Source: Desulfobacterales bacterium
GTDB taxonomy: Bacteria; Desulfobacterota; Desulfobacteria; Desulfobacterales; JAAELO01
Assembly: GCA_024226555.1 (NCBI GenBank)
Contig: JAAELO010000244.1
Span: 1 to 36,244 of the forward strand
DNA length: 36,244 nt
Reading direction: 5' to 3'
This document shows, one piece after another, positions 3,424 through 34,518 of the stretch. Position 1 is the stretch's first letter; every line of letters starts with the position of its first letter. The position numbers and the translations under genes were made by a program. The notes beneath the pieces are model-generated. The model was not told where the DNA came from. It did not search any database and was given only the letters and a program-made list of their open reading frames with translations.

Positions 3424-3500
3424 TACTGCTTTATAACTTTTTTTTGCTAATCGACGTATAGCAAAACACGCCTCATATCAAAAAAAGCTAATGCCTTGTA
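3424..3500 (+). repeat. CTGCGTTA/GCCTTGTA structured repeat, copy 1
   Basis: Starts TACTGCTTTATAAC and ends AATGCCTTGTA. The arms are CTTTTTTTTG and CAAAAAAAG. The loop contains TCGACGTAT and ACGCCT, matching the conserved loop of the other copies. It lies 20 bp after the stop of the SDR gene, in the same sense. Confidence 0.7.
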
Positions 3501-3506
3501 TATATG

Positions 3507-3566
3507 TGAAGCGCAATAAAAAAGCATAGCTTTTTTATGTTATTTGTTTTTTACTTCGCCAAAAGA
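3507..3566 (+). repeat. GCGCAATAAAAA hairpin repeat, copy 1
   Basis: Follows structured repeat copy 1 directly. GAAGCGCAATAAAAAAGC leads into a 10-bp perfect hairpin (3516-3525 with 3529-3538, ATAAAAAAGC/GCTTTTTTAT). It ends with GTTTTTTACTTCGCCAAAA. Near-identical flanks occur at 20027-20170, and the right flank occurs alone at 4063-4082 and, inverted, at 34407-34425. The last site reads as an empty version, with TATATGAAG joined straight to TTTTTTACTTAGCC. Confidence 0.55.
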
Positions 3567-3630
3567 TTGGATTTTAATTTTTGATTTGTATTAAGATAGG
3601 ATATTAATAAATTGTTAAGGAGAAACAAAA

Positions 3631-3882
3631 ATGGGAAAAAGGAAAAAGAAACAGGTTATCAAAGGTGAAGTTACACCAACGATAAGAAAACCAATAGCAC
3701 CACCGGGTTTTTCATTTAAAGACAAGAAAAAGTATGACAGGAAAGATAAGTTTAAAAAGGGTTGGGAGGAGCGCAATAAAAAAGACCACTCTATTGCTAT
3801 TGGTGATAATAGTTCCAACCCTTTTTTATTTTGTATCGATACCGACGCTTGTAAAATACCTCCATTTTCTGTGTTGCAGTAA
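3631..3882 (+). CDS. Small very basic protein of unknown function
   Basis: 83 aa, starting seven bases after a strong AAGGAG. The first 50 residues are rich in Lys and Arg and include VIKGEVTPTIRKPIAPPGFS and KDKKKYDRKDKFKKG, suggesting a nucleic-acid or ribosome-associated small protein. That is inference from composition only. The C-terminal 30 residues (SSNPFLFCIDTDACKIPPFSVLQ) are not basic. The stop codon directly abuts structured repeat copy 2, so the repeat may have supplied the end of the reading frame. Bases 3769-3783 match the GCGCAATAAAAAAG motif of the hairpin repeat 260 bp upstream. I do not recognise a named family. Confidence 0.6.
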   Translation: MGKRKKKQVIKGEVTPTIRKPIAPPGFSFKDKKKYDRKDKFKKGWEERNKKDHSIAIGDNSSNPFLFCIDTDACKIPPFSVLQ

Positions 3883-3883
3883 C

Positions 3884-3929
3884 CTATCAAACCTCGACGT
3901 ATAAACTACATACGCCTGCGGCTTGATTG
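3884..3929 (+). repeat. CTGCGTTA/GCCTTGTA structured repeat, copy 2
   Basis: Arms CTATCAAACC (3884-3893) and GGCTTGATTG (3920-3929) enclose a 26-nt loop. The loop contains TCGACGTAT, CATAC and GCCTGC, where GTAT and ATAC can pair. The loop is the GC-richer version of the TCGAAATAT...ATATTCCT loop in copies 5 and 7-9. It begins one base after the stop of the small basic ORF. The outer boundary motifs are degenerate in this copy. Confidence 0.65.
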
Positions 3930-4303
3930 AACACTACGCCTCGAAACTGAAACTTTTTTACCTCGCTCCTATACTGTCATAATTAAATAACCTTTTTTTA
4001 CTAAAATACTGAAAAATTTTGTTTTTGATAGAGCTTAAACCAGACTGATCATTAGTGGTTTCTTGTTTTTTACCTTGCCTAAGAATTAGGATTTTCTGAA
4101 GGTCAACAAATCACAAGTTTTTTGTTTATATAACATGAATTAGGATTTTAAGATGAAATACAACGTTTATAAAAGCTTTTAGTTTTATAAAATCTCTGCA
4201 TAACAATGAATGTTTTACCGGAGGAGTATGTTTTTATTACTTCGATGATAAAACTTTATTGTTTAACACAGCATTTCGCTTAAAAGACAATTCGTATCAA
4301 AAA
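3930..4303. other. Repeat-rich gap without a convincing gene
   Basis: Holds the isolated right flank of the hairpin repeat (TTGTTTTTTACCTTGCC, 4063-4079) and a TTTATAAAA hairpin at 4164-4201. That hairpin recurs on the far side of the ykgJ-like gene. An ACCGGAGGAG Shine-Dalgarno-like string near 4217 is followed by ATG but by no ORF of useful length. The remainder is AT-rich and featureless to me. Confidence 0.5.
4164..4201. repeat. TTTATAAAAGC hairpin, left member of a direct repeat
   Basis: Starts CGTTTATAAAAGCTTTTAG and ends AAAATCTCTGCAT. It matches 5158-5195 at 36 of 38 positions by my alignment. Internal complementarity TTTATAAAA/TTTTATAAA makes it a hairpin. The two copies lie in the same direction on either side of the ykgJ-like gene at 4304-5083. 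Confidence 0.75.
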
Positions 4304-5083
4304 TTACAACTTCTTAAATTTTTTGGTTGGTAGATTCCATAGGTAAAACTTGATCCAGGAAAAGCCGAACTTCAACATCTCAGTTTCATTTTTCTTTATT
4401 TTCTTAAGAACATCTGCTTTAATTTTGAATCTTTTCTTAAAACTGCTCTTTAGAATAAAATCACTGAAAATATCCATATTATATGCTGACATAAAAGCCA
4501 TCTTGGCCCTTTGCCCATTTGCACCTTCAGGTCCCCAGGGATCATTACCAAACAACGCTTTAACTTCAGCCCACAAAAGTGTCATTTTGTAATATTTTTC
4601 TGCTTCCTGATCTTTTGACCATGTTTCCTTTGTCCACACTGTGTCCTCATCCTGACCTCTGCAAAACTCCGGTGGTTTAAAGAAACTTATCATATCTGCT
4701 TTTCCCGATTCTCCAAAAATCACACCATGCTCAACGGGAAATGTTCTGCACGAATCAGGTCTTCCTGAATATACAGAACAACCTTCTTTGGATAGAAAAG
4801 GGCAGGTTTTTTCCTCATTATCTGCCATTTTAAGCAGAACATCGGGAAAATAATTTCCCTCCCTAAGAACAATATCAGTATGTTTTTCAATGAATTCATC
4901 TGATGAAATGTTTAGTTCGTTTTTGAGTCTTAAAACATCATATGGGTATAAAAACAGGTTGAGGTTCCGGCAGCAAAGGTTAAAGCAGGATACATCCTTA
5001 TGACACTTAAATTTAAAAGGTTCTCCGGAATCTATACGTTTTCCGGGAAGTTTATCTATCTCACTAATCTCAACTGATTTCAT
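4304..5083 (-). CDS. YkgJ-family cysteine-cluster protein (copy 2)
   Basis: 259-aa paralogue of the protein at 1845. Cysteines are C27, C33 and C37-C38 (CFNLCCRNL), then the CPFLSKEGCSVYSGRPDSCR block and a late C in PPEFCRG. It is predicted to bind metal; the function is unknown. There is no signal peptide. Its Shine-Dalgarno AGAGG comes from the TTATTAGAGGTTCC end of the repeat at 5089-5357, so the repeat may supply the translation signal. The gene lies in a repeat-bounded segment, with 38-bp direct repeats at 4164 and 5158, and in inverted orientation to copy 1. This suggests local duplication or repeat-mediated rearrangement. Confidence 0.87.
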   Translation of the reverse strand: MKSVEISEIDKLPGKRIDSGEPFKFKCHKDVSCFNLCCRNLNLFLYPYDVLRLKNELNISSDEFIEKHTDIVLREGNYFPDVLLKMADNEEKTCPFLSKEGCSVYSGRPDSCRTFPVEHGVIFGESGKADMISFFKPPEFCRGQDEDTVWTKETWSKDQEAEKYYKMTLLWAEVKALFGNDPWGPEGANGQRAKMAFMSAYNMDIFSDFILKSSFKKRFKIKADVLKKIKKNETEMLKFGFSWIKFYLWNLPTKKFKKL

Positions 5084-5088
5084 ATTTT

Positions 5089-5357
5089 GGAACCTCTAAT
5101 AATTTGAATTTTAGTAAAATAAAAACTAAAGCTTTTTATTTGCGTATTGAAATTTAGCGTTTATAAAAGCTTTCAGTTTTATAAAATCTCTACATGAGAA
5201 AAAATAACGAGATGATTCGTTTATAAAAAAGGTTTTCTTTTATAAAGTTTACAGTTTTTTTTGGAATAACACTGTGTAATGCGAAGCATTCACCACATAT
5301 ACATTGATAAACGAGAACAACTGTAGTTCAATCAAAAGTCATTTATTAGAGATTCCC
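5089..5357. repeat. CTCTAATAA-ended palindromic repeat, composite copy
   Basis: Bounded by inverted ends GGAACCTCTAATAATTTGA (left) and TTTATTAGAGATTCCC (right). Inside are two TTTATAAAA hairpins, at 5158-5187 and about 5219-5246, with AAAAAATAACGAGATGATTCG between them. That block matches the middle of the compact copy at 13198-13360. At 269 bp it looks like one element nested in or fused with another. It fills the whole gap between two ykgJ-like genes. Confidence 0.65.
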
Positions 5358-5359
5358 AT

Positions 5360-5962
5360 TTAATCCAATATTATTTCAGCTATTGTCATTTTTATTCTCT
5401 GGTTAATAGCTGCTTCTTCTCTTAAGCCACGTTCCAGATTTGCCAACTCAATATAAAATGGAGTTCTGTCCAAAGGAAGGTATTTTTTTTCATTTGAAAG
5501 CTCTGTAAATTGTTCACAACCAGGCCCTCTTAATGGTTCCTGACCAGGCTTTCTCAATTCATGGCACACTCCGTGAAGTCTGCATATCATTGGTCTGTAT
5601 TCATAAAGAACACATAAACCATCAAAATTCAGTGGACACATTTTTCTAAAAGGTTCTTTGGAATTATGATTTTTAAGAGCCATAATTTGAGATTCAGATT
5701 TGATTTTGACCTCTTTTAACAAATCCTGATCAAGAGTTTTCAGTCCCTCTTTAAGATATAGACATTCAAGCAGGGTGTGATGATAAAAGAGGGTCAAACA
5801 ACAACTATCTGTACATCCCTTGCAATCAAATCCATAATGACCTGCAATAATATCATAACCTTTTGCCATGGAATCAAATACAGATTTTAAATTCTCAAAA
5901 TAGAGTTCTGTGTTTAAGTCAGTCTGAATCATATTCAAATTTGGAAAAAGATTATTTTCCAA
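5360..5962 (-). CDS. YkgJ-like cysteine-cluster protein (copy 3), TTG start
   Basis: 200-aa, more distant member of the same metal-binding class. Cysteine motifs are CKGCTDSCC (around residues 46-54), then CPLNFDGLCVLYEYRPMICRLHGVC and a late C in GPGCEQF. The function is unknown. The start is TTG at 5962, four bases after a strong GAGGAG. The only in-frame ATG, at 5932, has no ribosome-binding site. The start overlaps the last 11 bases of the Lys-rich gene upstream, so translation is probably coupled. Pairing with a DNA- or RNA-binding-type basic protein is the main functional hint. Confidence 0.85.
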   Translation of the reverse strand: MENNLFPNLNMIQTDLNTELYFENLKSVFDSMAKGYDIIAGHYGFDCKGCTDSCCLTLFYHHTLLECLYLKEGLKTLDQDLLKEVKIKSESQIMALKNHNSKEPFRKMCPLNFDGLCVLYEYRPMICRLHGVCHELRKPGQEPLRGPGCEQFTELSNEKKYLPLDRTPFYIELANLERGLREEAAINQRIKMTIAEIILD

Positions 5963-6257
5963 ACAACTCCTCAGCTTTTTTTACAGCAAATTTACAAACA
6001 TTGTCATCTAAAGAGTAAAGAGCTCTTACTTTTTCAATACTTCCCAAAGATTTTACTTTCTCATTAATAAACTTAACCTGAGACTCGGTAAGTTTAATCT
6101 CTTTAGTTTTTCTGGCTCTTTTTTTAGCTGCTTTTTTCTTTGAAACTGCCTTCTTCTTTGCAGTTTTTTTCTTAGCTGCTTTTTTCTTCGGAGCAACCTT
6201 CTTTTTAGCTACTGCTTTTTTCTTTGTTTTTTTCTCTGTATCTTTAGTCGATGCCAT
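5952..6257 (-). CDS. Lys/Ala-rich histone H1-like small basic protein
   Basis: 101 aa. The N-terminal half is repeats of the type KKKAVAKKK/AAKKKTAKKK, as in bacterial histone H1-like tails. The C-terminal half (from about residue 55, KEIKLTESQVKFINEKV to AEELFGK) looks folded and helical. It probably binds nucleic acid, inferred from composition. I chose ATG 6257 because AGGTGA lies about eight bases upstream. A GTG at 6269 in the same frame overlaps that site. The gene overlaps the next by 11 bp. The poly-Lys region is A-rich at the DNA level and could be prone to slippage. Confidence 0.8.
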   Translation of the reverse strand: MASTKDTEKKTKKKAVAKKKVAPKKKAAKKKTAKKKAVSKKKAAKKRARKTKEIKLTESQVKFINEKVKSLGSIEKVRALYSLDDNVCKFAVKKAEELFGK

Positions 6258-6367
6258 TTTATTATTCACCTGTCAAATCAAACAATTTAATAATTTAAGA
6301 AACCTAACAATTACCTTTTGACCGAACTAAAGCGTTTTTCGAAAAAAAGAACTGTTGAAAAACCCAG

Positions 6368-6427
6368 CTCGTTATTTTTTTCTCAACCTTGTATTTCAAT
6401 AAAAATTCGAATTATTAGAGGCTCCTT
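6368..6427 (-). repeat. CTCTAATAA-ended palindromic repeat, single arm
   Basis: On the minus strand this reads GGAGCCTCTAATAATTCG, then GAAATACAAGGTTGAG, then AAAAAAATAACGAGCTG. That is the same order of blocks as the left arm of the 163-bp copy at 13198. The second arm is not recognisable, so this is a solo half. It sits in the 371-bp gap between the Lys-rich gene and the HEAT-receiver gene. The remainder of that gap holds the promoter at 6531 and otherwise unremarkable AT-rich sequence. Confidence 0.6.
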
Positions 6428-6530
6428 TAAGTAACTTGGATCAGTATCAGAATAACAGTTTTTGTCAAATCAAAAATTTAAAAACTATGATTTTTATTTG
6501 ATTTTTAGAGATCATCATTTAAATGAGAAT

Positions 6531-6559
6531 TTGACAAAATAAATATTAACGATCATAAT
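6531..6559 (+). promoter_or_regulatory. Sigma-70 type promoter for the HEAT-receiver gene
   Basis: TTGACA (perfect -35) and CATAAT (5 of 6 for -10) with 17-bp spacing. The start would be near 6566, giving a leader of about 63 nt before ATG 6629. This is the best sigma-70 match in the window. Confidence 0.75.
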
Positions 6560-6628
6560 ATTTACTACATATGATAAAAAATATCATTACCTTTTCAGGT
6601 ATTTCACTACTAAAATCAGGGATATGTT

Positions 6629-9424
6629 ATGAACAATATTGAACAGCAATTTATAGATGAATTATTGTTTTGTATTAAAGAGAATGATCTTCAAAAAAGT
6701 TATGCTCTTCTGCAGTTTATTCCAACAATTAGTCCTGAAATTCAAAACAGGGCTCTTTTTGAGATTAGTAATGCAAATGATGGTCTTTCATATTCCATGT
6801 TTGAGTATCTTGTACGTGTTGAAATCGCTGACGATGCTGTAAGAAACAAACTCTACGAGATTATTCTTGATAAAGGCAGAGTAAATAACGAATTCTATTT
6901 TATTTATATACGCATGGCTGATGAAAACAAGATGCCGGAAACAGTACCTGTTCTCCTTGATATCATAACCACAGAAACCAATATCGGGATATTAATGGAG
7001 ACCATAAGAGCTCTCTCCAATATTGGCCATGGATCATCTGTTATGGCACTATCTGAATTCATTTATTATAATGATGAGATGCTGAAACGGGAAGCAATAC
7101 TTGCCCTTGAAAGAATAGGTGGAACTACAGCGAGACAGGCCCTTGAATTTGCAGCAAAAACAAGCAAAGCCAGTCCTATTATATTGTCAACATTAGATAA
7201 ATTAAGAAAAGCTGAGAATCTTCCTCCATTTACTTTTGAAAAGCCAGCCCTGGTTGAAGAGCCTGAACCCAAACCTGATCCTGTTGAAACAAAGCCTGTT
7301 AAAGATACAAAAAGAACCGAACCTGAAAAAACTAAAGAGATTGAGATCGAGATCCCTGAAGAAACTCAAAAACTTCTGGATATGTTTAATTCAGGAAATG
7401 TGGAATTGAGGCATCAGGCGATTGATTCTCTTATAGAACAAGGTGAAGAATGTATTTCAGCCATTGTTCACAACATGGATCTGGAAGATGCTGATAATTT
7501 AATTAATTCACTTGATATTCTTGGTAATATTAGTTCAAAAGCAGCGGCTTCACCGATTTTAAAAGTTATTGACAACAAACACAAAGATTCTAATGTCAGG
7601 TTTGCTGCATTTGAAGCTTTAGAGCGTCTACCAAAATTAAAATCTGCTCTTGTATTGATAGAAGGTGTCACTGATCCATCTGAACAGGTTAGAATTGCTG
7701 CTGCTGCTGCGATAGATAAAAATCTTTCCGATGTTCTTCTTGCTGGTTTAAGGAGCAAAATCGACTCCGGAGGCAGGGCAGCAAAGCTTGTTATTGAAGG
7801 TATAATGGACTCAAGATCAGAAAATACTTTTGAAGCACTATTAGAATCAGACGCCTTTACGTTTGGATCTTCCAACTATCTTACACACGATGCTGAACCT
7901 GAAGTACGGGAATATTTTATAAAACTATTAAAAAACAGGGGAAACAAAGCTCTTGCTGGAAGAATAGCTTTTGATACTCAAAAGGATAAAATTAAAAACA
8001 GACTGACAATCTATGCTGTGGATGATTCACGAATAATGTTAAATTTCTATGTTAAAAAGATCTATAAAATGGGACATTCTCCTATTGTTTTTACCAATCC
8101 AAACAAGGCTCTAAAAATGATAAAAAAATCAAAACCAAGCCTTGTTATTACAGATCTAAATATGCTTGAAACATCGGGACTTCAGCTTGCGTCCAAAATA
8201 AGGAATATCTATCCTGATAATCTTCTTCCTATAGTTATAATAACAACCCAGGGAGATTTTATTTTTGATGTAAATCAAACAAATGATTCAGATAATAAAA
8301 AGCAAGTTACTAAATGTGGTGTGACTAAAGTTCTAAAAAAACCACTTAATCCTGATGAACTTTTACCTTTCCTTGATGCTGAAAAAGCAGAGAGTGGACT
8401 AAGTGATATTTTATATACACTTTCTTCGGAGAATCCGGATATTCGGTACAAAAATTACCAAAATGTACTTAAAGAAAATGATCTAAATATGAAAGAGCTA
8501 TCAGAGAACATTATTGTTGATGATATAGATCTTTCCATTAATAAATTGAACATACTCTCTGAAAAAGGGGATGAAAGTTCAATAGATGCAATAATGAAAG
8601 TTATTGAATCAAAACCAAAGGATCCCAATCTAAGATTTGCCGCATATAAAGCTTTTTATTCCCTTGTTCCAAATTCCTACGATATTCCAGAGAATTTTTT
8701 AAAGTATCTTGAAGATTCAGCTGATCATGTTCGTATTGCCGTTTCCAAGATTATTAATAAAGTATACTCGGATGAAATAAATAATAAGATGAAGGAGATG
8801 ATTGAAACTGGTAGCAGAATTGCTAAAGTTATAGTTTCAGCAATTATCGACTCAAGGTCCGACAATCTTTTTAAATTTTTGTTGGGCTCAGATGCTTTTA
8901 CATTTGTAGCCTCCGATTATCTTTCAAGAACGACCCATCCTTCTAACAGGGAGTTTTTTCTGAATATTTTAAAATCAAGGGGAAATAACTCCATGGCAAG
9001 ATCTATCGAAAGAGATGCTGAGGATAGCAGTCGTAGTCGAAAGAGCGTTGTCGTTGTTGATGATTCAGATATTATGCATGATTATTACATTAGCAAATTG
9101 CATGCATCAGGCTTTAAGCCAACAGTTTTCAAAAACCCGGAAGATGCTTTTGGTTTCATTTTTAAAGATAAACCGGATCTTATAATTACGTCTTTTATGC
9201 TGCCGGTTTTTTCAGGTATAAAACTTGCTGAAGAGATAAGAAAAGATCTTCCGTCTGAAGATTTGCCAATCGTTATGGTCACAGGCCAAAACAGTTTTGT
9301 AAAAGATTCAGGGGATAGTGATTCTGTTTTCAAACGTGAGATTGCAACAAAGGGTGTTGACAGGATTTTTGCAAAACCCTTAAAAATGAAGGAATTGGAA
9401 GTAATCCGTTCCCTAATTAGTTAG
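6629..9424 (+). CDS. HEAT-repeat protein with two receiver domains, internally duplicated
   Basis: 931 aa, cytoplasmic. HEAT-like helical repeats cover residues 1-195, then a Pro/Lys/Glu-rich linker at 204-245. Two tandem modules follow, each HEAT repeats plus a receiver domain: 245-590 and 600-931. Shared landmarks are VRIA, IIDSRS/IMDSRS, SDAFTF and RGN(K/N). Receiver 1 is complete: D465-D466, phosphoacceptor D509 (VITDLNM), T539-T540 and K571. Receiver 2 keeps D811-D812, T885 and K916-P917, but the phosphoacceptor is S855 (IITSFML), so it should not be phosphorylated in the usual way. No output domain is visible, so it is probably a scaffold or single-site switch. The start follows AGGGA by six bases. 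A strong promoter lies at 6531. No kinase gene is adjacent. Confidence 0.88.
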   Translation: MNNIEQQFIDELLFCIKENDLQKSYALLQFIPTISPEIQNRALFEISNANDGLSYSMFEYLVRVEIADDAVRNKLYEIILDKGRVNNEFYFIYIRMADENKMPETVPVLLDIITTETNIGILMETIRALSNIGHGSSVMALSEFIYYNDEMLKREAILALERIGGTTARQALEFAAKTSKASPIILSTLDKLRKAENLPPFTFEKPALVEEPEPKPDPVETKPVKDTKRTEPEKTKEIEIEIPEETQKLLDMFNSGNVELRHQAIDSLIEQGEECISAIVHNMDLEDADNLINSLDILGNISSKAAASPILKVIDNKHKDSNVRFAAFEALERLPKLKSALVLIEGVTDPSEQVRIAAAAAIDKNLSDVLLAGLRSKIDSGGRAAKLVIEGIMDSRSENTFEALLESDAFTFGSSNYLTHDAEPEVREYFIKLLKNRGNKALAGRIAFDTQKDKIKNRLTIYAVDDSRIMLNFYVKKIYKMGHSPIVFTNPNKALKMIKKSKPSLVITDLNMLETSGLQLASKIRNIYPDNLLPIVIITTQGDFIFDVNQTNDSDNKKQVTKCGVTKVLKKPLNPDELLPFLDAEKAESGLSDILYTLSSENPDIRYKNYQNVLKENDLNMKELSENIIVDDIDLSINKLNILSEKGDESSIDAIMKVIESKPKDPNLRFAAYKAFYSLVPNSYDIPENFLKYLEDSADHVRIAVSKIINKVYSDEINNKMKEMIETGSRIAKVIVSAIIDSRSDNLFKFLLGSDAFTFVASDYLSRTTHPSNREFFLNILKSRGNNSMARSIERDAEDSSRSRKSVVVVDDSDIMHDYYISKLHASGFKPTVFKNPEDAFGFIFKDKPDLIITSFMLPVFSGIKLAEEIRKDLPSEDLPIVMVTGQNSFVKDSGDSDSVFKREIATKGVDRIFAKPLKMKELEVIRSLIS

Positions 9425-9463
9425 AGAACATTTAGTCGGTGGGCATTGATTTTAGCACATCTG

Positions 9464-9523
9464 CTGCGTTACAAGCCACTCGCGGTATCAAATACATACA
9501 GCTTCGTGGCTTGATGCCTTGCA
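9464..9523 (+). repeat. CTGCGTTA/GCCTTGTA structured repeat, copy 3 (60-nt class)
   Basis: Begins CTGCGTTACAAGCC and ends GATGCCTTGCA. CAAGCCAC pairs with GTGGCTTG, and an inner GTAT pairs with ATAC. It matches the reverse complement of 26457-26516 at about 47 of 60 positions. It starts 39 bp after the HEAT-receiver gene, in the same sense. The rest of the gap up to 9762 is AT-rich without a clear feature. Confidence 0.8.
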
Positions 9524-9761
9524 TACGCCCTAAACTTAATGCCCTGCATTATTAATAAACGAAAGAAAAACCAATTGTTATTCTAATATTTTTTATTCAT
9601 AGGATGGATTAACGCCTTTTCAACGTATCTTTACACTATTTTGCAACATAAGAAACCGACTATAAAATTTCTACTTCTCGCATTTAAACTCTAAAATGTT
9701 TTTCTTTCTCAGGATAACTTTTATTACATTTTTTTCATAAGGGAATTGAGTTTGCTGAATA

Positions 9762-9821
9762 TTCAAGGCACCGAGCGGTAAAGTCGTAGTTGTTTCCTAC
9801 TACAAACCGCTCATAATGAAG
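9762..9821 (-). repeat. CTGCGTTA/GCCTTGTA structured repeat, copy 4 (60-nt class)
   Basis: On the minus strand it runs from CTTCATTATGAGCGG to CGGTGCCTTGAA. Stems are GAGCGGT/ACCGCTC and an inner GTAG/CTAC. It is exactly 60 nt, like copies 3 and 6. It lies about 33 bp upstream of the sigma-54 promoter and does not follow a minus-strand gene, so it may be a DNA-level site here. Confidence 0.65.
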
Positions 9822-9854
9822 AATATGTGGTGAAATCGATACCCTCAACGACAT

Positions 9855-9871
9855 TTGGCATGCTGCTTGCA
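9855..9871 (+). promoter_or_regulatory. Sigma-54 (RpoN) -24/-12 promoter
   Basis: TTTGGCATGCTGCTTGC has TGGCA and TTGC with GG and GC separated by exactly 10 bases, which fits the RpoN consensus. Transcription would start near 9882, and the ATG at 9916 has a good AGGAG. This is the only such site I found in the window. An enhancer-binding activator would be required (family knowledge). Confidence 0.75.
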
Positions 9872-9915
9872 AATTTCTAATTCCTAACAGTAAAAACTAC
9901 TTTTAGGAGAAAAAA

Positions 9916-10398
9916 ATGCAGGTTCAAAATCTATCAAATTCAATCGCTCAAAAGTACAGCAATACAGCTACAGCAATTGATGAAGTAAGTAATGAATCTT
10001 CTGAAAAGAGGGAGGAAAATCTTTCCCTAAGAAGTACTCTTCATTTGGAAAGAGCAAGAGTTGCTTCAAAAATTGCTAACAAGTATGGATCTTTCAGAAA
10101 TATCTCCCCAAGAGAGATGGTTAGTTTGAGCAGGGAGCTATACGACAAGGGAATTATATCTCTACAGGACTATAACATTCTTTCCCATCAGCCTGAGTTA
10201 CACAAAAACTACAATGATCACAATGAGGTTGAAGCAAAGCCAGATACAAAGAGGGATTTTATAGACATCTGGAAAAAACAGTATATGTCAGACAGAAATA
10301 AAGGTAATTTTAAAGGGATGGAAGTTTCAAGTGGAATTTTTAATATCCTTGAAAACTTACAGGCTCTTGTTTCAACGGGTAAAGCAGCGGCTGCTTAG
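9916..10398 (+). CDS. Unknown 160-aa protein under a sigma-54 promoter
   Basis: Probably soluble, with no signal peptide. The N-terminal half is Ser/Glu-rich. A central block of about residues 45-100 (ERARVASKIANKYG, ISPREMVSLSRELYDKGIIS, LQDYNILSHQPELH) looks like a conserved helical domain. The C-terminal helix ends LVSTGKAAAA. I do not recognise a characterised family. The RpoN-type promoter makes a flagellar, surface or nutrient-response role possible, but no flagellar gene is in the window, so this stays open. The stop is only two bases from the stop of convergent mltA, so the transcripts should overlap. Confidence 0.72.
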   Translation: MQVQNLSNSIAQKYSNTATAIDEVSNESSEKREENLSLRSTLHLERARVASKIANKYGSFRNISPREMVSLSRELYDKGIISLQDYNILSHQPELHKNYNDHNEVEAKPDTKRDFIDIWKKQYMSDRNKGNFKGMEVSSGIFNILENLQALVSTGKAAAA

Positions 10399-10400
10399 AA

Positions 10401-19843: not shown

Positions 19844-19870
19844 TTAGTAAGAGTTCAAATTTTGGCAAAT

Positions 19871-19951
19871 TACTGCGTTATACAAGAAAGTTTCTCCTCG
19901 AAATATAAAACCATATTCCTGCGGAATAAACATTTCCTGTAATGCCTTGTA
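19871..19951 (+). repeat. CTGCGTTA/GCCTTGTA structured repeat, copy 5 (80-nt class)
   Basis: Runs TACTGCGTTA to ATGCCTTGTA. GCGTTA pairs with TAATGC, and ACAAGAAAGTTT pairs with AAACATTTCCTGT with one bulge. The loop is CTCGAAATAT...ATATTCCTGC. It lies in the sense of dgt, 27 bp after its stop. Confidence 0.8.
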
Positions 19952-20014
19952 ATTTATCCAAACTTCAAACTCTTAAATATTAACCTTACAACGTCTTCCC
20001 GACCGATCCCAAAT

Positions 20015-20170
20015 GCCTTGTAAATGTGAAGCGCAATAAAAATCCCCGCAGCAAGCAACGGGGTATTATAATTAGTCTATCACAGACGCCGCAAGCGGCG
20101 GGGTATTAAACCCAAGCTTCGCAATAAAAACAAAGCATTTTTTATGCTATTTGTTTTTTACTTAGCCAAA
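20015..20170 (+). repeat. Composite repeat: GCCTTGTA end, GC-rich hairpins, GCAATAAAAA hairpin
   Basis: It begins with GCCTTGTA (20015-20022), the 3' end of the structured repeat without its 5' half. GTGAAGCGCAATAAAAA follows, as at 3507. Next come two GC-rich hairpins in AT-rich surroundings: CCCCG/CGGGG (20044-20063) and CGCCGC/GCGGCG (20087-20100). Each is followed by GGGGTATTA. It ends with CGCAATAAAAACAAAGC, a short AGCAT/ATGCT hairpin and TTTGTTTTTTACTTAGCC. The order suggests repeats inserted into repeats. Confidence 0.55.
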
Positions 20171-20230
20171 AAAGTTAATAAAATAGTAACTTATTTGAAA
20201 GTTTGATTAAAATTTTAACCTGAGATCGAC

Positions 20231-26266: not shown

Positions 26267-26361
26267 TTTAATATCCTTTATAAATACTTTTCTATAGTCT
26301 AAACTTATTGTTTTTAATCAAAAAAAGCAATTCAGGATTTCAATATAATATTCTTCAATAT

Positions 26362-26391
26362 TTGACAAAAACAAATCATTACATGTATTAA
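26362..26391 (+). promoter_or_regulatory. Candidate promoter of the DUF2065-queA run
   Basis: TTGACA (26362-26367) with TATTAA (26386-26391), 18-bp spacing. The leader would be about 155 nt and would contain structured repeat copy 6 in antisense orientation. Confidence 0.45.
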
Positions 26392-26456
26392 GTGTTTAAA
26401 ATTGATCGGAATTTTAACAGTTAACACTTTATTTGAATTGTTGAGTTTGCTGCAAA

Positions 26457-26516
26457 TACAAGGCTCCGAGCTATGAAGCTGTACGTTTTTTGTACCGCGA
26501 TTGGCTCGAAACGCAG
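26457..26516 (-). repeat. CTGCGTTA/GCCTTGTA structured repeat, copy 6 (60-nt class)
   Basis: On the minus strand it starts CTGCGTTTCGAGCC and ends GGAGCCTTGTA. CGAGC pairs with GCTCG and an inner GTAC with GTAC. Compared with copy 3 the second stem pair changes from A-T (CAAGC/GCTTG) to G-C (CGAGC/GCTCG), a compensatory change. It does not follow a minus-strand gene. Confidence 0.8.
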
Positions 26517-26553
26517 GATTTGTTGTGAAATCGACAATTCTTTAGGCGATTAA

Positions 26554-26745: not shown

Positions 26746-26751
26746 ATTTAT

Positions 26752-27798
26752 ATGTACGATTTAAAGGATTATGATTACGAACTTCCTGAAGATTTGATAG
26801 CACATAATCCAAAAGATAAAAGAGATAGTTCATCCCTTTTATGTTTAGACAGAGAAACGGGCGTTACTAACCACAAAGTTTTTACTGATATTATTGATTT
26901 CTTTAAACCAGGTGACACGCTTGTTTTAAACAATACAAGAGTTGTACCTGCAAGACTTTATGGGAAAAAAGAGACCGGTGGTAAAATTGAGATTCTTATT
27001 CTTGATTATATAAAAGGTATCGAAAAACTGAATAAAAATGGTTTTTTTGAATGTGACTGTTTGGTTAAGGCTTCCAAAAGACCTGCAGTGGATTCAACTC
27101 TATATTTTGATGGCTTTACAGCAGTGGTTACAGATTTCAAAAATGGTGTTTCAACCTTAAGGTTCGATAGCTCAGAGATTGAAAATATACTTGAAGAGAA
27201 AGGTGAACTTCCTTTACCTCATTATATAAATAAAGATGAGGAGCGGGATGACAGGACTAAATATCAAACAGTATATGCAAAAGAGAAAGGTGCTGTGGCA
27301 GCCCCAACAGCCGGGCTTCATTTTACTGATGAACTTCTTTCAAAACTCAAAGACAAAGGTGTTGATATAACATATGTAACTCTCCATGTGGGTTATGGAA
27401 CTTTCGTACCTGTTAGAGTTTCTGATATTCGTGATCACAAAATGCACTCTGAATTTTTTACTGTTTCAAAAGAAACTGCTGATATTGTTAATAGTGCAAA
27501 AAAAGATGGTCGAAGAGTTATCGCTGTGGGTACAACATCTGTAAGAACTCTGGAATATGCATCAAAAGAGACTGGAATTGTTCAGCCCGGCTCAGGGAGT
27601 TGTGATCTGTTTATATATCCGGGATTTAAGTTTAATATAGTTGATGCAGTTATAACTAATTTTCATTTGCCTGAGTCTACGTTAATGATGCTTATTTCTG
27701 CTTTTGCGGGGCGTGAAAATGTTATGAAGGCGTACAAAGAAGCTATCAAAAATGAATATAGGTTCTTTAGTTACGGAGACTCAATGCTAATTATTTAA
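26752..27798 (+). CDS. queA: S-adenosylmethionine:tRNA ribosyltransferase-isomerase
   Basis: 348 aa, full length. It converts preQ1-modified tRNA to epoxyqueuosine using the ribosyl group of SAM. Landmarks are YDYELPEDLIAHNP at the start, LVLNNTRVVPARLYG, GAVAAPTAGLHFT, YVTLHVGYGTFVPV, HSEFFTVS, GTTSVRTLEYA and TNFHLPESTLMMLISAFAG. It follows the DUF2065 gene by six bases. tgt follows about 225 bp later with structured repeat copy 7 between, placing two consecutive queuosine genes in one direction. Confidence 0.97.
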   Translation: MYDLKDYDYELPEDLIAHNPKDKRDSSSLLCLDRETGVTNHKVFTDIIDFFKPGDTLVLNNTRVVPARLYGKKETGGKIEILILDYIKGIEKLNKNGFFECDCLVKASKRPAVDSTLYFDGFTAVVTDFKNGVSTLRFDSSEIENILEEKGELPLPHYINKDEERDDRTKYQTVYAKEKGAVAAPTAGLHFTDELLSKLKDKGVDITYVTLHVGYGTFVPVRVSDIRDHKMHSEFFTVSKETADIVNSAKKDGRRVIAVGTTSVRTLEYASKETGIVQPGSGSCDLFIYPGFKFNIVDAVITNFHLPESTLMMLISAFAGRENVMKAYKEAIKNEYRFFSYGDSMLII

Positions 27799-27817
27799 CG
27801 ATTGGCTTTTTGTTAAA

Positions 27818-27897
27818 TACTGCGTTATAAAAAGAGAATAAACTTCGAAATATTAAAAACATATTACTTCAGTTTATTATCTTTTCAGTGTCTTGTA
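27818..27897 (+). repeat. CTGCGTTA/GCCTTGTA structured repeat, copy 7 (80-nt class)
   Basis: TACTGCGTTATA to GTGTCTTGTA. AAAAGAGAATAAACT pairs with AGTTTATTATCTTTT with one mismatch. The loop is TCGAAATATT...ATATTACTTC. It lies 19 bp after the queA stop, in the same sense. Confidence 0.8.
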
Positions 27898-28001
27898 TTT
27901 ATTCAAAAAATCCAAAGTTAAATATAATCAGGAATATATTTCTTAAACCATAGAGTTTTTGATCAATCTTTTTGCAAAAAGATTGCCGTCGGAGACTTTA
28001 A

Positions 28002-29129
<1,128 letters not shown>

Positions 29130-29166
29130 TGACAGGGTACTAATTAGTAAAAAGGGGTAACTAAAA

Positions 29167-30345: not shown

Positions 30346-30550
30346 AACCAATTGTTATAACATGTATTATTACGTACTTACAATTTTGTTAAAATGCATT
30401 CATTTACTAAACATCTCTTTTGTCTTGACATTTTTCCGAGAGTGTACAAATGTTAGAATTCGCATTAAAAAAGATGTATGGGCCGATTTTAAATAAAATC
30501 AATTATTTATAATCATATCTTTTAATTTTAAACTAAATTTTAAAAAGAAT

Positions 30551-30772
30551 ATGAAAAATAAAAAAATGGCAGCTGCATTAGCTGCAGTCACAAACTACAT
30601 TAAGTCAGAAGAAGAATCCATTGTATCACAAACTTGTGGACCTCAGGAACAAGTACCTGTTATTGAAAATGAACCTATATTCGCCTCTCCATTTAGCAGA
30701 TGGAATTCAGGTGGAAGAGAAGCTCTCATGCAGATGAGAACTATGATGCAAATGAGATTAATGGGGCGCTAA
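30551..30772 (+). CDS. 73-aa protein upstream of the biotin carboxyltransferase gene
   Basis: The N-terminus MKNKKMAAALAAVTNYIKSEEE is helical. The middle is Pro/Glu-rich. The C-terminus PFSRWNSGGREALMQMRTMM ends in Arg-rich Met repeats. The layout of an Ala-rich helix, a flexible linker and a WxxxGRxxxMxxR end resembles small ancillary subunits beside oxaloacetate or methylmalonyl-CoA decarboxylase-type genes. That resemblance, plus its position 160 bp before pycB, suggests an assembly or stabilising partner, which is inference. The Shine-Dalgarno is weak. A TTGACA at 30425-30430 upstream has no good -10. Confidence 0.7.
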   Translation: MKNKKMAAALAAVTNYIKSEEESIVSQTCGPQEQVPVIENEPIFASPFSRWNSGGREALMQMRTMMQMRLMGR

Positions 30773-30820
30773 GCTTCACAAAAACGGAAATAAGCCTTCA
30801 GATTTATGTTTAAAGTTATA

Positions 30821-30837
30821 CCCCATTTTTAATGGGG
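30821..30837 (+). promoter_or_regulatory. Short hairpin between the 73-aa gene and pycB
   Basis: CCCCATT (30821-30827) and AATGGGG (30831-30837) form a perfect 7-bp stem with a three-base loop. The following TCTCTTGTCTT is T-rich but not a run. It could be a partial terminator that lowers expression of pycB relative to the upstream gene, or a processing site. Confidence 0.45.
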
Positions 30838-30934
30838 TCTCTTGTCTTCAATACTTGGATAGTTTGTTTATAACTGTATTGTAAAAGAGTCTTTATGGTT
30901 AAGGCTTTTAATAAAGTTTATTGGGAGAATGATG

Positions 30935-32941
30935 ATGAATGAACACGGTGTATTGAATAAAGCTAAAATGGAATACGGTGCTGACAGGCCGAAAGCTGCA
31001 AATCCAGTCAAAATTATGGATGTGACTTTAAGAGATGGTCACCAGTCACTGTTCGCAACCAGAGGCCGTACAGAGGATATGATCCCTGTGGCTGAGATGA
31101 TGGATGAAATTGGATTCTGGGCAACAGAAACCTGGGGTGGTGCGACATTTGACACCATGCACAGATTTCTAAACGAAGACCCATGGGAAAGAATCAGAAC
31201 TCTTAAGAGATATATGAAAAAAACTCCTTTTTCAATGCTTCTTAGAGCTCAAAACCTTGTTGGTTACAGAAATTATGCTGATGATTTAGCATATGCGTTT
31301 GTTGAAAGAGCCGCTGAAAATGGAATGGATATTTTCAGAACATTTGATGCTCTTAATGATTACAGAAACTTTGAAACTGTTGTTTCTGCTATTAAAAAAT
31401 GTGATAAACACTTCCAGGGTTGCATCTGCTATTCTCTTACAGAAGCAAGAATGGGTGGAAATGTTTATGATCTTAAGTATTTTGAAAATAAAGCAATAGC
31501 CCTTAAAGACATGGGAGCTGACAGTATCTGCATTAAAGATATGGCTGGCCTTATTGCTCCATATGATGCGTATGACCTTGTAAAAACAATAAAAGAAGCC
31601 GTGGATATTCCGGTTCTTCTTCATAGTCATTTCACCTCTGGAATGGCTTCAATGACTCATTTGAAAGCTATCGAAGCTGGTGTGGATATTTTAGATACCT
31701 GCATGTCACCATATGCATACAGAACATCTCACCCTGCTGTTGAACCTCTTGTTATGTCTCTTCTTGGAACTGATAGAGATACTGGTTTTGATATAAATGC
31801 TCTTGCTGAGGTCAATGAAATTTTTGAAAGAGATATTTTACCAAAATATAAACATCTTCTTTCAGATAACAAAATGTCTGTTATCGATATCAATGTTCTT
31901 CTTCACCAGACACCTGGTGGAATGCTTTCAAACCTTGTTAATCAGCTTAAAGAGATGGATGCTCTTGATAAGATTGATGAAGTTTATAAAGAACTACCAA
32001 GAGTTAGAAAAGAACTCGGACAAATTCCACTTGTTACTCCAACAAGTCAGATCGTTGGAACTCAAACTGTAAATAACGTTCTTTTCGATGATGAAAATGA
32101 AAGATATAAGATGATTACGGGTCAGGTTAAGGACCTTTGCTATGGTTTATATGGAAAAACAGCAGTTCCAATAGATCCAAAAATTCAAAAGAAAGCCCTT
32201 AAAGGATATGACAGAGGAGAAACTCCTATTACTTGTCGTCCTGCTGAGGTTCTTGAAGCTGAACTTCCAAAGGCAAAAGCAGATGTTAAAGGACTTGCTG
32301 TTGATCTTGACGATGAAATTCTTTACGCAATATTCCCTGTAACCGGTAAAAAATTCCTTAAGTGGAAATATGGTAAAGAGGAAGCTCCTGCAGATACAAA
32401 AGGAAAAACCCTTGAAGAAGTTAAAGCTCAGGATGAATTAGTTAAAAAGGCTCTTGAAGGTAAACTTGTTGATAAAACAGATATTGGAACTGGTCCTCAA
32501 AGAACAGATCATTTAAGAAAATTCAATGTATTTGTTGAAAATGACTACTTTGAAGTTGAAGTTGATGAGATTGGTGGACCACCGGTTGTAAATATAGCCG
32601 GAATGCAAGCTGCAGCTCCTGCACCTGCTGTTTCAGCAATACCTGCAGCACCAGTTGCTGCTGCGCCTGCGGCCCCAGCTCCAAGTGCACCTGCGACAAC
32701 ACCAGCTCCTGCAGCAAACACTAATGGTGGTACATCCTTAAAAGCTCCAATGCCAGGAATGATTGTTAATTATTCCAAGAATGTTGGCGATAGTGTTGAA
32801 AAAGGTGACATTGTCGTTATTTTAGAAGCTATGAAGATGGAAAACGCTCTTCCTGCTCCTACTTCCGGGACAATTAAAGCTATAAACTTTGCAAGTGGGG
32901 ACTCTGTTGCTAAAGATGCTGATCTTTGTGTAATAGGTTAA
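30935..32941 (+). CDS. pycB: Pyruvate carboxylase subunit B / oxaloacetate decarboxylase alpha-type carboxyltransferase with biotin domain
   Basis: 668 aa from ATG 30935, the third of three consecutive ATGs and the one best spaced from GGGAG. The carboxyltransferase domain (about 25-290) has VTLRDGHQSLFATR, RTFDALNDYRN and the carboxylated-lysine region DSICIKDMAGLI, with HSHFTSGMA metal ligands. The conserved PYC_OADA domain follows (about 310-500). An Ala/Pro-rich hinge (about 550-595) leads to a biotinyl domain with EAMKMEN near the end, biotin on its Lys. Neither the biotin carboxylase subunit nor the membrane beta subunit is nearby, so carboxylation and decarboxylation cannot be separated. 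The carboxylase role fits anaplerosis in sulfate reducers. Confidence 0.93.
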   Translation: MNEHGVLNKAKMEYGADRPKAANPVKIMDVTLRDGHQSLFATRGRTEDMIPVAEMMDEIGFWATETWGGATFDTMHRFLNEDPWERIRTLKRYMKKTPFSMLLRAQNLVGYRNYADDLAYAFVERAAENGMDIFRTFDALNDYRNFETVVSAIKKCDKHFQGCICYSLTEARMGGNVYDLKYFENKAIALKDMGADSICIKDMAGLIAPYDAYDLVKTIKEAVDIPVLLHSHFTSGMASMTHLKAIEAGVDILDTCMSPYAYRTSHPAVEPLVMSLLGTDRDTGFDINALAEVNEIFERDILPKYKHLLSDNKMSVIDINVLLHQTPGGMLSNLVNQLKEMDALDKIDEVYKELPRVRKELGQIPLVTPTSQIVGTQTVNNVLFDDENERYKMITGQVKDLCYGLYGKTAVPIDPKIQKKALKGYDRGETPITCRPAEVLEAELPKAKADVKGLAVDLDDEILYAIFPVTGKKFLKWKYGKEEAPADTKGKTLEEVKAQDELVKKALEGKLVDKTDIGTGPQRTDHLRKFNVFVENDYFEVEVDEIGGPPVVNIAGMQAAAPAPAVSAIPAAPVAAAPAAPAPSAPATTPAPAANTNGGTSLKAPMPGMIVNYSKNVGDSVEKGDIVVILEAMKMENALPAPTSGTIKAINFASGDSVAKDADLCVIG

Positions 32942-32973
32942 ATCACAAAAAAAGAAAAAGTTTAAAAAAATAT

Positions 32974-33020
32974 CAGGTTTATTGGAAATCATACACGATT
33001 TCTGATAAACCTGTTTTTTT
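32974..33020 (+). terminator. Intrinsic terminator after pycB
   Basis: CAGGTTTAT pairs with ATAAACCTG and GAAATC with GATTTC around a six-base loop, with one TG/TG internal loop, followed by seven T. It separates pycB from hypA. Confidence 0.92.
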
Positions 33021-33045
33021 ATATTAGTCACAGAGGAAAATAAAA

Positions 33046-33390
33046 ATGCATGAGATGGGAATTGCAGCTGAAATTATTAAAATAGCTGAGTCTTCAATAC
33101 CGGAAGACTTTGATGGTGCTGTTGAGAAGGTTAATATGAGAATAGGAAAAATGTCTTCAGTTGTTCCTGAAAGCCTGAAATTCTGTTTTGATATTGCCTC
33201 TGAAGATACAAGACTAAAAGGCGCCGATTTTGTTATTGAGGAGATTCCTGTGGTTTTTCTTTGCAAAGAGTGCGAGAAAGAAACAGAAGCTGATGGCCCA
33301 CAGTTCTCTTGTAAAGAGTGTGGTGGTAAAAAGATTGAGATAATTTCCGGTAAGGAATTAGAGATTACTTCAATAGAGCTTGAAGACTAA
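33046..33390 (+). CDS. hypA: Hydrogenase nickel metallochaperone HypA
   Basis: 114 aa, full length. It delivers nickel to NiFe hydrogenase with HypB. The MHE start provides the Ni-binding His2. The zinc site is CKEC (near residue 74) and CKEC (near residue 91). NMRIGKMSSVVPESLKFCFD matches the family helix. It starts after AGAGG. No hydrogenase structural gene or hypCDEF is in the window. hypB follows after 155 bp, but structured repeat copy 8 lies between, so the two may not be fully co-expressed. Confidence 0.96.
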   Translation: MHEMGIAAEIIKIAESSIPEDFDGAVEKVNMRIGKMSSVVPESLKFCFDIASEDTRLKGADFVIEEIPVVFLCKECEKETEADGPQFSCKECGGKKIEIISGKELEITSIELED

Positions 33391-33416
33391 CCCTAATAAT
33401 TCCATTTTGAGCGAAC

Positions 33417-33494
33417 TACTTCGTGAATTGACAATTTAAACCCATCGAAATATTATTTATATTCCTTTGTGTTTAAATTATCAATTCACTTGTA
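33417..33494 (+). repeat. CTGCGTTA/GCCTTGTA structured repeat, copy 8 (80-nt class)
   Basis: GTGAATTGACAATTTAAAC (33423-33441) pairs with GTTTAAATTATCAATTCAC (33471-33489) at 18 of 19 positions. The 29-nt loop is CCATCGAAATATT...ATATTCCTTTGT. This is the best-paired copy, and its arms share no sequence with other copies. It begins 26 bp after the hypA stop. Confidence 0.85.
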
Positions 33495-33545
33495 TTTCAT
33501 CACAAAATTAAATTATTAGATTTTTGATAATAAGGATAATAAAAT

Positions 33546-34208
33546 ATGGAAGTTAAAATAGTAAAAAAAGTTTTAGATGCTAACGATACTATGGCTGAAG
33601 AAAATCGCAAACTTTTCAGAGATAAAAACGTTTATGTCCTTAATATTATGAGTTCTCCAGGGTCCGGTAAAACAGAAACTCTTGTAAAATCACTGGCCAG
33701 ACTTGAACCTGAACTTAAAACAGCAGTCATTGTTGGTGATGTTTGCACAACAAACGATGCCGACAGATTAAATGTTACCGGAACACATGCTGTTCAGGTA
33801 AATACAGATGAATTCGGTGGAGATTGCCACCTTGCAGCCCATGTAATAAGAAAAGCTGCCCTTGATCTTGACCTTGAATCAATAGACCTTCTTATTGTTG
33901 AAAATATCGGAAATCTTGTTTGTCCGGCGGAATTTGATATCGGAGAAGATAGCCGTGTTGTACTTCTAAGCGTTACTGAGGGAGAAGACAAACCCCTTAA
34001 ATACCCAGTGATGTTTAAACTTTGTAGCGGGGCTGCCGTTCTTAATAAAGTTGACCTTCTTCCATACCTTGATTTTAATATTGATGAAGCTGAAGATAAT
34101 ATTAAGTCAATCAATCCTGATATTCCGGTTTTCCGTATCTCTGCAAAAACTGAAGAGGGTTTTGATGATTGGCTTAGCTGGATCAAAGATGTTGTAAAAA
34201 GTAAATAA
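33546..34208 (+). CDS. hypB: Hydrogenase/urease nickel-insertion GTPase HypB
   Basis: 220 aa, a G3E-family GTPase that drives nickel insertion. The P-loop MSSPGSGKTET lies near residues 36-46. Metal-site and switch segments are VGDVCTTNDADRL, FGGDCHLAAHVIRKA and VENIGNLVCPAEFDIGED. NKVDLLPYL is the guanine-specificity motif. There is no N-terminal His-rich nickel-storage tail, unlike some homologues. No urease genes are seen. It is followed 18 bp later by structured repeat copy 9. Confidence 0.96.
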   Translation: MEVKIVKKVLDANDTMAEENRKLFRDKNVYVLNIMSSPGSGKTETLVKSLARLEPELKTAVIVGDVCTTNDADRLNVTGTHAVQVNTDEFGGDCHLAAHVIRKAALDLDLESIDLLIVENIGNLVCPAEFDIGEDSRVVLLSVTEGEDKPLKYPVMFKLCSGAAVLNKVDLLPYLDFNIDEAEDNIKSINPDIPVFRISAKTEEGFDDWLSWIKDVVKSK

Positions 34209-34226
34209 TAGTCTTTTTGAAAAATT

Positions 34227-34306
34227 TTCTGCGTTATACTAAAGTTGATATTCATCGAAATATTATAAATATTCCTCTGTATATCAAACTTTAGTAATGC
34301 CTTATA
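34227..34306 (+). repeat. CTGCGTTA/GCCTTGTA structured repeat, copy 9 (80-nt class)
   Basis: CTGCGTTATACTAAAG to AATGCCTTATA. GCGTTA pairs with TAATGC, and ACTAAAGTTGATAT with ATATCAAACTTTAGT with one bulge. The loop is TCATCGAAATATT...AATATTCCTCTGT. It lies in the sense of hypB, and faces copy 10 across 119 bp. Confidence 0.85.
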
Positions 34307-34425
34307 GTTTTCCCAAAATCCTGATTATTTCTATTATCATAATTTAAATGCTCTTATAAGTCCTTTAGTTTGTACCCATATTCCTTACAAATAAGATCTT
34401 ATTAAATTTTTGGCTAAGTAAAAAA

Positions 34426-34518
34426 CTTCATATACAAGGCATTAGCATTTTGACAGCGATGAGTCGTATTCCAATACGTCGAAGAGCTGGCGAAGATGCT
34501 ATAACGAAGTATATGAAG
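34426..34518 (-). repeat. CTGCGTTA/GCCTTGTA structured repeat, copy 10, with extended ends
   Basis: Minus-strand reading: CTTCATATACTTCGTTATAG to GCCTTGTATATGAAG. Outer arms CTTCATATAC/GTATATGAAG are perfect and GCATC...GC arms pair inside. The inner loop forms CGTATTGGAATACG. It is in the sense of gltX, 18 bp after its stop. The 328-bp gap between hypB and gltX holds this copy, copy 9 and the lone right flank of the GCAATAAAAA hairpin repeat near 34407. Confidence 0.8.

Follow-up and report, generated by a model that had tools for sequence, protein, structure and literature searches.

Are hairpins that recur behind the stop codons of unrelated genes RNA structures of the messages they follow, or something else? 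The question is raised by a stretch of 36,244 nucleotides, referred to throughout as the window, from a Desulfobacterales bacterium (GenBank assembly GCA_024226555.1, contig JAAELO010000244.1). A first-pass annotation, made from the letters alone, described ten copies of a structured intergenic element in it and explained them as an RNA acting at transcript 3' ends, spread as a repeat. The present analysis points to another answer: the copies are probably small, non-autonomous mobile elements of about 105-185 bp, which resemble miniature inverted-repeat transposable elements (MITEs) and possess a strand-specific core, and not a dedicated family of sense-RNA genes.

Transposon-like relatives of the window hairpins

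Near-identical relatives of the window copies are transposon-like: they end in inverted repeats and are flanked by target duplications, and two kinds can be told apart. Copies that are near-identical to other copies in their genome may be called young, a word that describes similarity here and carries no date. The first kind of end, GATGG..GTAAAAAGTC / GACTTTTTACGAGWCCATC, was met in relatives and is accompanied by a 6-bp duplication. The near-identical elements of genomes G017 and G019 have inverted-repeat ends GATGG/GACGG..TCGTAAAAAGTC, and an exact 6-bp target duplication surrounds 10/10 full-length G017 copies and 9 of the 17 G019 copies with both ends. The second kind, GGGAAYCTCTAATAA / TTATTAGAGRTTCCC (GGGAAYC), has a 4-bp duplication and belongs to a high-copy set in the bacterium's own genome; terminal inverted repeats were present in both kinds. 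The GGGAAYC set occupies 178 places in the 1.475 Mb sampled (e.g. stretches L096 and L166 of C161), with an exact 4-bp duplication at 73 of them compared with 9.4 expected from shuffled flanks (maximum 18). Since the own-genome stretches were picked partly for holding matches, these densities apply to the stretches and are not to be extrapolated; the placement null described below uses the same stretches. The very high-copy MITE of the own genome is mostly 120-139 bp long, with ends GGGAAYCTCTAATAAC..GTTATTAGAGRTTCCC and 4-bp duplications, and a short type of the high-copy set (type D) retains CTGCGTT..GCCTTG without the TCGA tip. The ends of the window copies themselves are degenerate; the inverted repeats and duplications are those of the relatives and of the high-copy own set.

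Similarity supports the view that the two kinds of ends share one core, CTGCGTT ... GCCTTG in the sense of the gene, with a TCGA-GTA/TAC-CCTC tip in most copies and not in the high-copy short type. By eye, this core is common to both end kinds and the tip of the short type is a different one. At nine contig-end places in G017 (L406-L414), GATGGACTCGTAAAAAGTAGAATTTCATAACA.. with the same 18-nt end is followed by one other, identical interior (13-36 nt seen) and then by the contig break. A longer multi-copy transposon that shares the element's ends probably terminates at these places, and the ends of the longer multi-copy element in G017 share GATGGACTCGTAAAAAGT. The left end of the G017 and G019 elements (e.g. 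L108 10001-10150) has its complement twice at the right end, as an inner ..TTTTTCCATAGCCATC and an outer GACTTTTTACGAGTCCATC, and therefore the left arm has two possible partners.

The extent of the family was determined with two covariance models, R1 from four copies (two in the window and two elsewhere in the own genome) and R2 from twenty type-C copies (copies 2 and 10 included) with a hand-placed 43-pair structure. R1 had at least 62 matches at E<=1 in the own genome (7.69 Mb, 904 contigs) and R2 at least 78, which lie at 71 places because the near-palindrome also matched on the other strand. Outside it, R2 had matches in 21 of the order's 39 other genomes (E<=0.01) and in 53 of 147 others in the phylum (E<=0.001). 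A covariance-model search of this sort had been suggested by the first-pass annotation, and it revealed a family that is genome-wide, with matches across the order and the phylum. Searching named genomes with a DNA pattern gave at least 119 stretches, and the 80 named records among the matches listed are Deltaproteobacteria, Desulfobacterales, Desulfobacteraceae, Desulfobulbaceae or metagenome-assembled genomes of Candidatus Desulfobia/Desulfatibia. The ten window copies are real members of a large superfamily of small MITE-like hairpins that sulfate-reducing bacteria and related organisms carry.

This hairpin family apparently has no name so far. The first-pass annotation knew of no named family, in agreement with Rfam 15, which had no match in the window at gathering score; seven loci searched at E<=5 gave three matches (MIR172, MIR1435, IMES-1), all far below gathering scores. 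Plasmids had no match to two near-identical elements or to the end of the longer element, phages none to one near-identical element, and viral contigs none to two patterns; among open-licence papers, no publication on this hairpin family was found.

Placement at stop codons and the strand that folds

Genes were called with the author's hexamer-scoring script, which is not a published gene finder, and placement was counted for the 52 strong copies (E<=6.1e-7) among 91 distinct R2 places in the own genome. The upstream gene runs in the same direction in 47 of them and in the opposite direction in 4, and the remaining copy sits where a contig ends. A stop codon lies no more than 60 nt away from 41 of the copies. 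Random intergenic placement, simulated 4000 times, gave means of 22.8 in the same direction and 5.2 within 60 nt. At 0 to 20 nt, the mean was 2.1 (sd 1.4, maximum 9), compared with 19 observed. Random placement relative to gene ends, which the first-pass annotation had considered as an objection to its explanation, was not found in the own genome, where 36/52 copies, including those 19, lie in sense at -25 to +20 nt of a stop codon. Its count of eight of ten window copies in sense at a stop codon was right as well, copies 4 and 6 being the exceptions.

Among the relatives, 58 of 59 loci given were scored (L194 had no usable anchor); L103 and L105 were left out, as were L193 and L195, which match the opposite strand of places counted before. 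Sense copies no more than 60 nt from a stop make up 22 of the 27 scored in G016 and 18 of 30 in G008. For 81 copies in named genomes, the upstream gene is on the same strand in 39 (28 of these within 60 nt of a stop) and on the opposite strand in 31. The near-identical sets show no clear bias of orientation (same/opposite 14/15, 7/4 and 12/11; GGGAAYC set 40/54; the G003 set comprises 23 copies from 24 loci), and the diverged sets are strongly one-sided (47/4 in the own genome, 22/5 in G016). Since the near-identical copies are transposon-like and without clear orientation bias, the sense placement at stops belongs to the diverged copy sets, as was seen in three genomes (own, G016 and G008).

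Wherever an upstream gene was compared with a profile, it proved full length: queA extends to 345/345 profile positions, hypB to 214/217 and gltX to 469/470, and in G008 HypE covers 332/332 and DNA polymerase I 889/889. The left end of the element often holds the stop codon. In G008 it is a TAG in 12/18 cases, mostly as TAGAAGC; in G016 the triplet consists of one flanking T and the first two bases of the element in 14/22 cases (distance 22-24); and in seven own copies it is the TAA of GTAAAA, by arithmetic from the distance of -13.

Such placement favours the view that the element is a structure of the sense transcript, has spread as a repeat, and brings about termination, trimming or stabilisation at mRNA 3' ends. 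Two further observations agree with it. The sense strand folds well, with set means of -20 to -63 kcal/mol, and a run of five or more T past base 85 is present in 38/52 strong copies in sense and in 18/52 antisense. The statement of the first-pass annotation that an obvious U-run is lacking does not fit this count, and copy 10 with GAAGTTTTTTAC is an example in the window. However, no U-run was seen by eye at the end of the G008 copies, two elements lie within probable operons (hypA-element-hypB in the window and hypD-element-hypE in G008), which speaks against a terminator role, and near-identical copies show no preferred orientation.

The mismatches in the stems bear more directly on this explanation. 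Constraint on the sense transcript would be expected to leave G.U wobbles on the sense strand; the reverse was found. Private stem mismatches on the sense strand were A.C in 39 and G.U in 9 cases in G008 (p=1.5e-5), 17 and 6 in the own genome (p=0.035), 3 and 1 in G016, and 7 and 4 in other relatives, that is 66 A.C versus 20 G.U over the four sets, so that the excess of G.U over A.C expected of an intrinsic terminator did not appear. The count was confined to copies with a recognisable tip and end (27/30 in G008, 8/27 in G016, 41/141 own places and 11/27 others) and omitted columns in which at least 20% of copies are mismatched; with those columns kept, A.C/G.U is 91/28 (G008), 25/2 (G016), 56/19 (own) and 31/7 (others). 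As a control, 65 terminator-like hairpins that follow stop codons without an element in the own genome had 22 G.U and 6 A.C, and 51 hairpins in the control regions on the other strand had 5 G.U and 17 A.C. Since the control hairpins invert the ratio between strands, the mismatch test tells strands apart.

Folding energies lead to the same strand. The complement of the gene-sense sequence is more stable in 30/30 copies of G008, 27/27 of G016, 30/30 of G019, 11/11 of G017 and 21/23 of G003, in 80/91 own copies, 38/40 of type D, 83/94 of the GGGAAYC set, 81/81 named copies (this set used 80 of the 119 stretches) and 10/11 window copies. In 469 element-free 3' regions taken as control, the lean is the opposite one, the complement being more stable in 202/460. 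Consensus energies from RNAalifold for sense and complement are -25.7/-60.5 kcal/mol in G008 (26/30 copies used), -18.1/-51.0 in G016, -7.9/-19.5 for the named copies (73/81 used) and -3.7/-7.0 in the own genome. With G.U pairs forbidden, the preference for the complement is small and persists (28/30, 25/27, 73/81 and 33/40). By eye, the complement shows GA facing GA in the loop near the tip and AAGGC/AACGCA in a second constant loop.

Since the complement is more stable and A.C exceeds G.U on the sense strand, the constrained fold is that of the strand complementary to the message of the upstream gene, on which the apparent A.C mismatches become G.T/U wobbles. The sense transcript is thus not supported as the constrained molecule, and a sense-RNA element as the whole account of the family appears unlikely.

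All window copies form a single long hairpin with covarying arms, and the covariation asserted by the first-pass annotation was borne out by 43 hand-placed pairs in twenty own-genome copies, assessed with 500 shuffles and a slid structure: 82.1% of cells are paired compared with 73.2% when shuffled, and the covariation score is 0.314 compared with 0.175 shuffled (reached in 0/500) and 0.066-0.091 slid. In the same pairs and copies, the measure of further pair types showed no excess over chance (67/500 shuffles). Among the loci examined, no usable pair of orthologous copies in two genomes was found for a direct view of compensatory change.

DNA parameters prefer the complement too (30/30, 27/27, 81/81 and 39/40). 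Therefore, since the preference is alike under both sets of parameters, the folded molecule may be RNA or single-stranded DNA, and each possibility suggests a functional explanation. If it is RNA, the complement may be transcribed and fold next to the stop as a functional antisense RNA, acting on the mRNA of the gene or on incoming antisense transcription. The G.U wobbles and the GA-opposite-GA loop of the complement strand are in keeping with this; however, in G008 the promoter-side flank does not look conserved, and no consistent relation to the promoter-side gene was seen (both by eye), and the explanation is very unlikely.

If it is single-stranded DNA, the folded complement may be the substrate of a recombinase, so that the element would be a strand-specific recombination or integration site by analogy with the attC sites of integrons. 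In attC sites the bottom strand folds, the arms are variable, and the sites lie at the end of reading frames. The hairpin elements are similar in their folded complement strand, variable arms, constant unpaired motifs and sense position at stops, and the DNA parameters agree. In contrast, their ends, as read by eye, lack attC boxes (RYYYAAC/GTTRRRY), no cassette arrays are evident, and copies stand beside housekeeping genes (gltX, queA, polA, hypE) in both contig orientations; furthermore, the 4- and 6-bp target duplications of near-identical copies point to an ordinary transposase. A recombination site of this general kind is decidedly unlikely. The integron attC identification proper was dropped on ends and context.

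The copies in the window

All ten copies of the first-pass annotation are present where it had placed them, and an additional, degenerate one (copy 11) was missed by it. By eye, three subtypes can be distinguished: A (copies 3, 4 and 6), B (5, 7, 8, 9 and 11) and C (1, 2 and 10). In the following list, bits are covariance-model scores and fold energies are in kcal/mol.

Copy 1, 3399..3528, plus strand: type C (GTAAAA type), at the end of the SDR-family gene 2594-3403; R2 52.3 bits; complement -36.8, sense -38.4.
Copy 2, 3842..3972, plus strand: type C, overlapping the end of the small open reading frame 3631-3882; R2 85.6 bits, itself in the R2 training set; complement -48.7, sense -20.0 (stretch folded).
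Copy 11, 4187..4278, minus strand: degenerate, 3' of the stop of the minus-strand gene 4304-5083; R1 22.5 bits (E 0.11), R2 30.9 bits at 4198-4268 (E 0.0024).
Copy 3, 9441..9546, plus strand: short type A, 3' of the HEAT/receiver gene 6629-9424; R2 33.9 bits.
Copy 4, 9749..9839, minus strand: short type A, not sense-downstream of a gene; forms a 94-nt repeat with copy 6 (71% identity), matched by neither R1 nor R2.
Copy 5, 19848..19977, plus strand: type B, starting 5 nt past the last base of the dgt stop (19843); R2 56.6 bits; complement -46.0, sense -31.0.
Copy 6, 26432..26541, minus strand: short type A, not sense-downstream of a gene; R2 23.4 bits (E 0.18); repeat with copy 4.
Copy 7, 27795..27923, plus strand: type B, overlapping the queA stop (27798), queA being full length against NCBIfam; R2 44.4 bits.
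Copy 8, 33392..33520, plus strand: type B, starting 2 nt past the last base of the hypA stop (33390); R1 24.4 bits at 33412-33500, missed by R2; complement -48.2, sense -34.8.
Copy 9, 34210..34324, plus strand: type B, at the hypB stop (34208); R1 84 bits, itself in the R1 training set; R2 46.6 bits.
Copy 10, 34407..34536, minus strand: type C, immediately 3' of the stop of gltX (gene 34537-35946, minus strand); R2 123 bits, itself in both training sets.

R1 recovers seven of the ten copies first described (1, 2, 5, 7, 8, 9 and 10) and R2 eight, gaining copies 3 and 6 and losing copy 8; copy 4 is included for its repeat with copy 6. Copy 1 is the sole exception among the eleven to the greater stability of the complement. 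The shared features described earlier, a CTGCGTT-like start and a GCCTTG-like end, were found, with the TCG..RTAT/ATAY..CCT tip in most copies, and the arms do differ in sequence from copy to copy while their complementarity is kept. In the clearest copies (5, 6, 8 and 9), the hairpin reaches outward past the ends first drawn, to 106-133 nt. The outer stem of type C is GTAAAA/TTTTTTAC-like, and type B resembles the ends of the GGGAAYC set (CTAATAA..TTATTAG in copy 8).

Some further arrangements were noticed. A recurrent tail GTGAAGCGCAATAAAAA, which is followed by TTTGTTTTTTACTTNGCC in the window copies, stands in place of the right arm or lengthens it (window 3505-3575 and 20014-20176; L093 14683-14815), and at window 20014 the element is reduced to its right half. 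Two tandem elements with similar, not identical, arms follow one gene in the own genome (L009 7118-7247 and 7270-7398). Although probably one operon, hypA and hypB (window 33046-34332) each carry an element after the stop, as do hypD and hypE in G008 (L228, L211).

Origin of the elements and known systems

A probable scheme for these MITE-like elements can be described as follows. Near-identical copies insert in either orientation. The core would serve the element itself in a folded, strand-specific form, either as single-stranded DNA during mobilisation or as the transcript of that strand. Long-term survival would be limited to copies that give a reading frame a clean end and contribute the weaker of the two hairpins to the mRNA. 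Copies thus retained at stop codons may act as a 3' boundary, as an exonuclease block or, with a following U-run, as a terminator. From the earlier explanation, this scheme keeps the spread repeat family with covarying stems and its genome-wide placement at gene 3' ends; what it gives up is the sense transcript as the constrained molecule, in view of the A.C excess and of the better fold of the complement.

Several points weigh against the mobile-element explanation. As for mobility, the core is the one link between the two end kinds; no autonomous partner was found beyond its likely ends, and facing ends 0.5-4.5 kb apart enclosed no convincing transposase in the stretches examined; and the ends TAGAAGC..GCTTCTA of G008 suggest, by eye, a TA duplication. 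As for placement, the preference for stops was not seen in G001 (1/5), G021 (0/4) or G034 (1/5). In G003, 11/12 sense copies that are still similar lie at -13 to +11 nt of a stop, the opposite copies being more spread (L196-L214, L247-L266), so that a site preference at insertion is possible. As for the strand, on the sense strand, G.U outnumbers A.C by 33 to 3 in helix 4 of the twenty-copy alignment (53 to 41 in the whole alignment), which favours a sense RNA, as do the commoner T-runs in sense; the complement folds better in just 3/4 G003 and 2/4 G021 copies, which are small samples; and RNA cannot be separated from DNA when both sets of parameters favour the complement. Finally, in G008, where the arms of the copies are unrelated, the excess of private A.C mismatches suggests a complement fold that remains under constraint at its present site. 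A plain relic would have no need of such constraint, and the mobile-element explanation leaves it unaccounted for.

A wider proposal is possible though doubtful. The strand-specific module (GA-opposite-GA tip and AAGGC/AACGCA internal loop, on the strand opposite the message) might be shared like a cassette between MITE families with different transposases across the phylum and be actively kept by compensatory change at the stops of dozens of unrelated genes per genome, where it would mark gene ends for an unknown protein that recognises it in the form of single-stranded DNA or antisense RNA.

On the mobile-element explanation, an apparent family of sense 3'-untranslated RNA structures can be copies of a mobile element with the real fold on the other strand, and the count of A.C versus G.U in stems is a simple strand test that is applicable to other palindromic repeats. 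A hairpin core found across a phylum is seemingly carried by elements with different ends, and its diverged copies stand with near base precision at the stops of full-length genes. The question raised is whether selection for a 3'-end role, or a strand-specific enzyme that places or uses copies at stop codons, is responsible.

Known elements offer partial parallels. REP and BIME are palindromic repeats (REPs of 20-40 bp) with proposed roles in termination and mRNA stabilisation, as described in an excerpt of the source (PMC3733652); unlike them, the hairpin elements are 105-185 bp long and have inverted ends and target duplications. RUP of pneumococcus has a length of 107 bp, and its mobilisation, at TA targets, is attributed to the IS630-Spn1 transposase (PMC2229807, in part). 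The G008 ends resemble such targets by eye; the ends differ as described, and a covarying hairpin core is not mentioned for RUP in that portion of the source. Chunjie, a MITE of Geobacter uraniireducens, has inverted and direct repeats, a length of 178-235 bp and tens of intergenic copies (PMC10969869, in part). By description it shares with the hairpin elements the MITE type with both kinds of repeats, and the portion of the source concerned mentions neither a strand-specific core nor stop placement for it.

The closest parallel is ERIC (IRU), a 127-bp enterobacterial repeat and MITE, which is described in excerpts of two reports as an imperfect palindrome with many intergenic copies, found at gene 3' ends, and whose effect on upstream mRNA in Yersinia depends on orientation (PMC2229807, PMC10969869). 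As far as those excerpts go, the hairpin elements are similar in size and likewise palindromic, intergenic, many-copy and located at gene 3' ends. They are set apart, by description and not by sequence, in having two kinds of ends and duplications apparently on one core, a constrained fold opposite the message, and diverged copies that abut the stop codon; the host range differs as well, being enterobacterial and Vibrio for ERIC and Deltaproteobacteria for the 80 named records listed here. The general kind is thus that of a MITE, and ERIC is nearest to the hairpin elements in size, in habit and in its orientation-dependent effect on mRNA.

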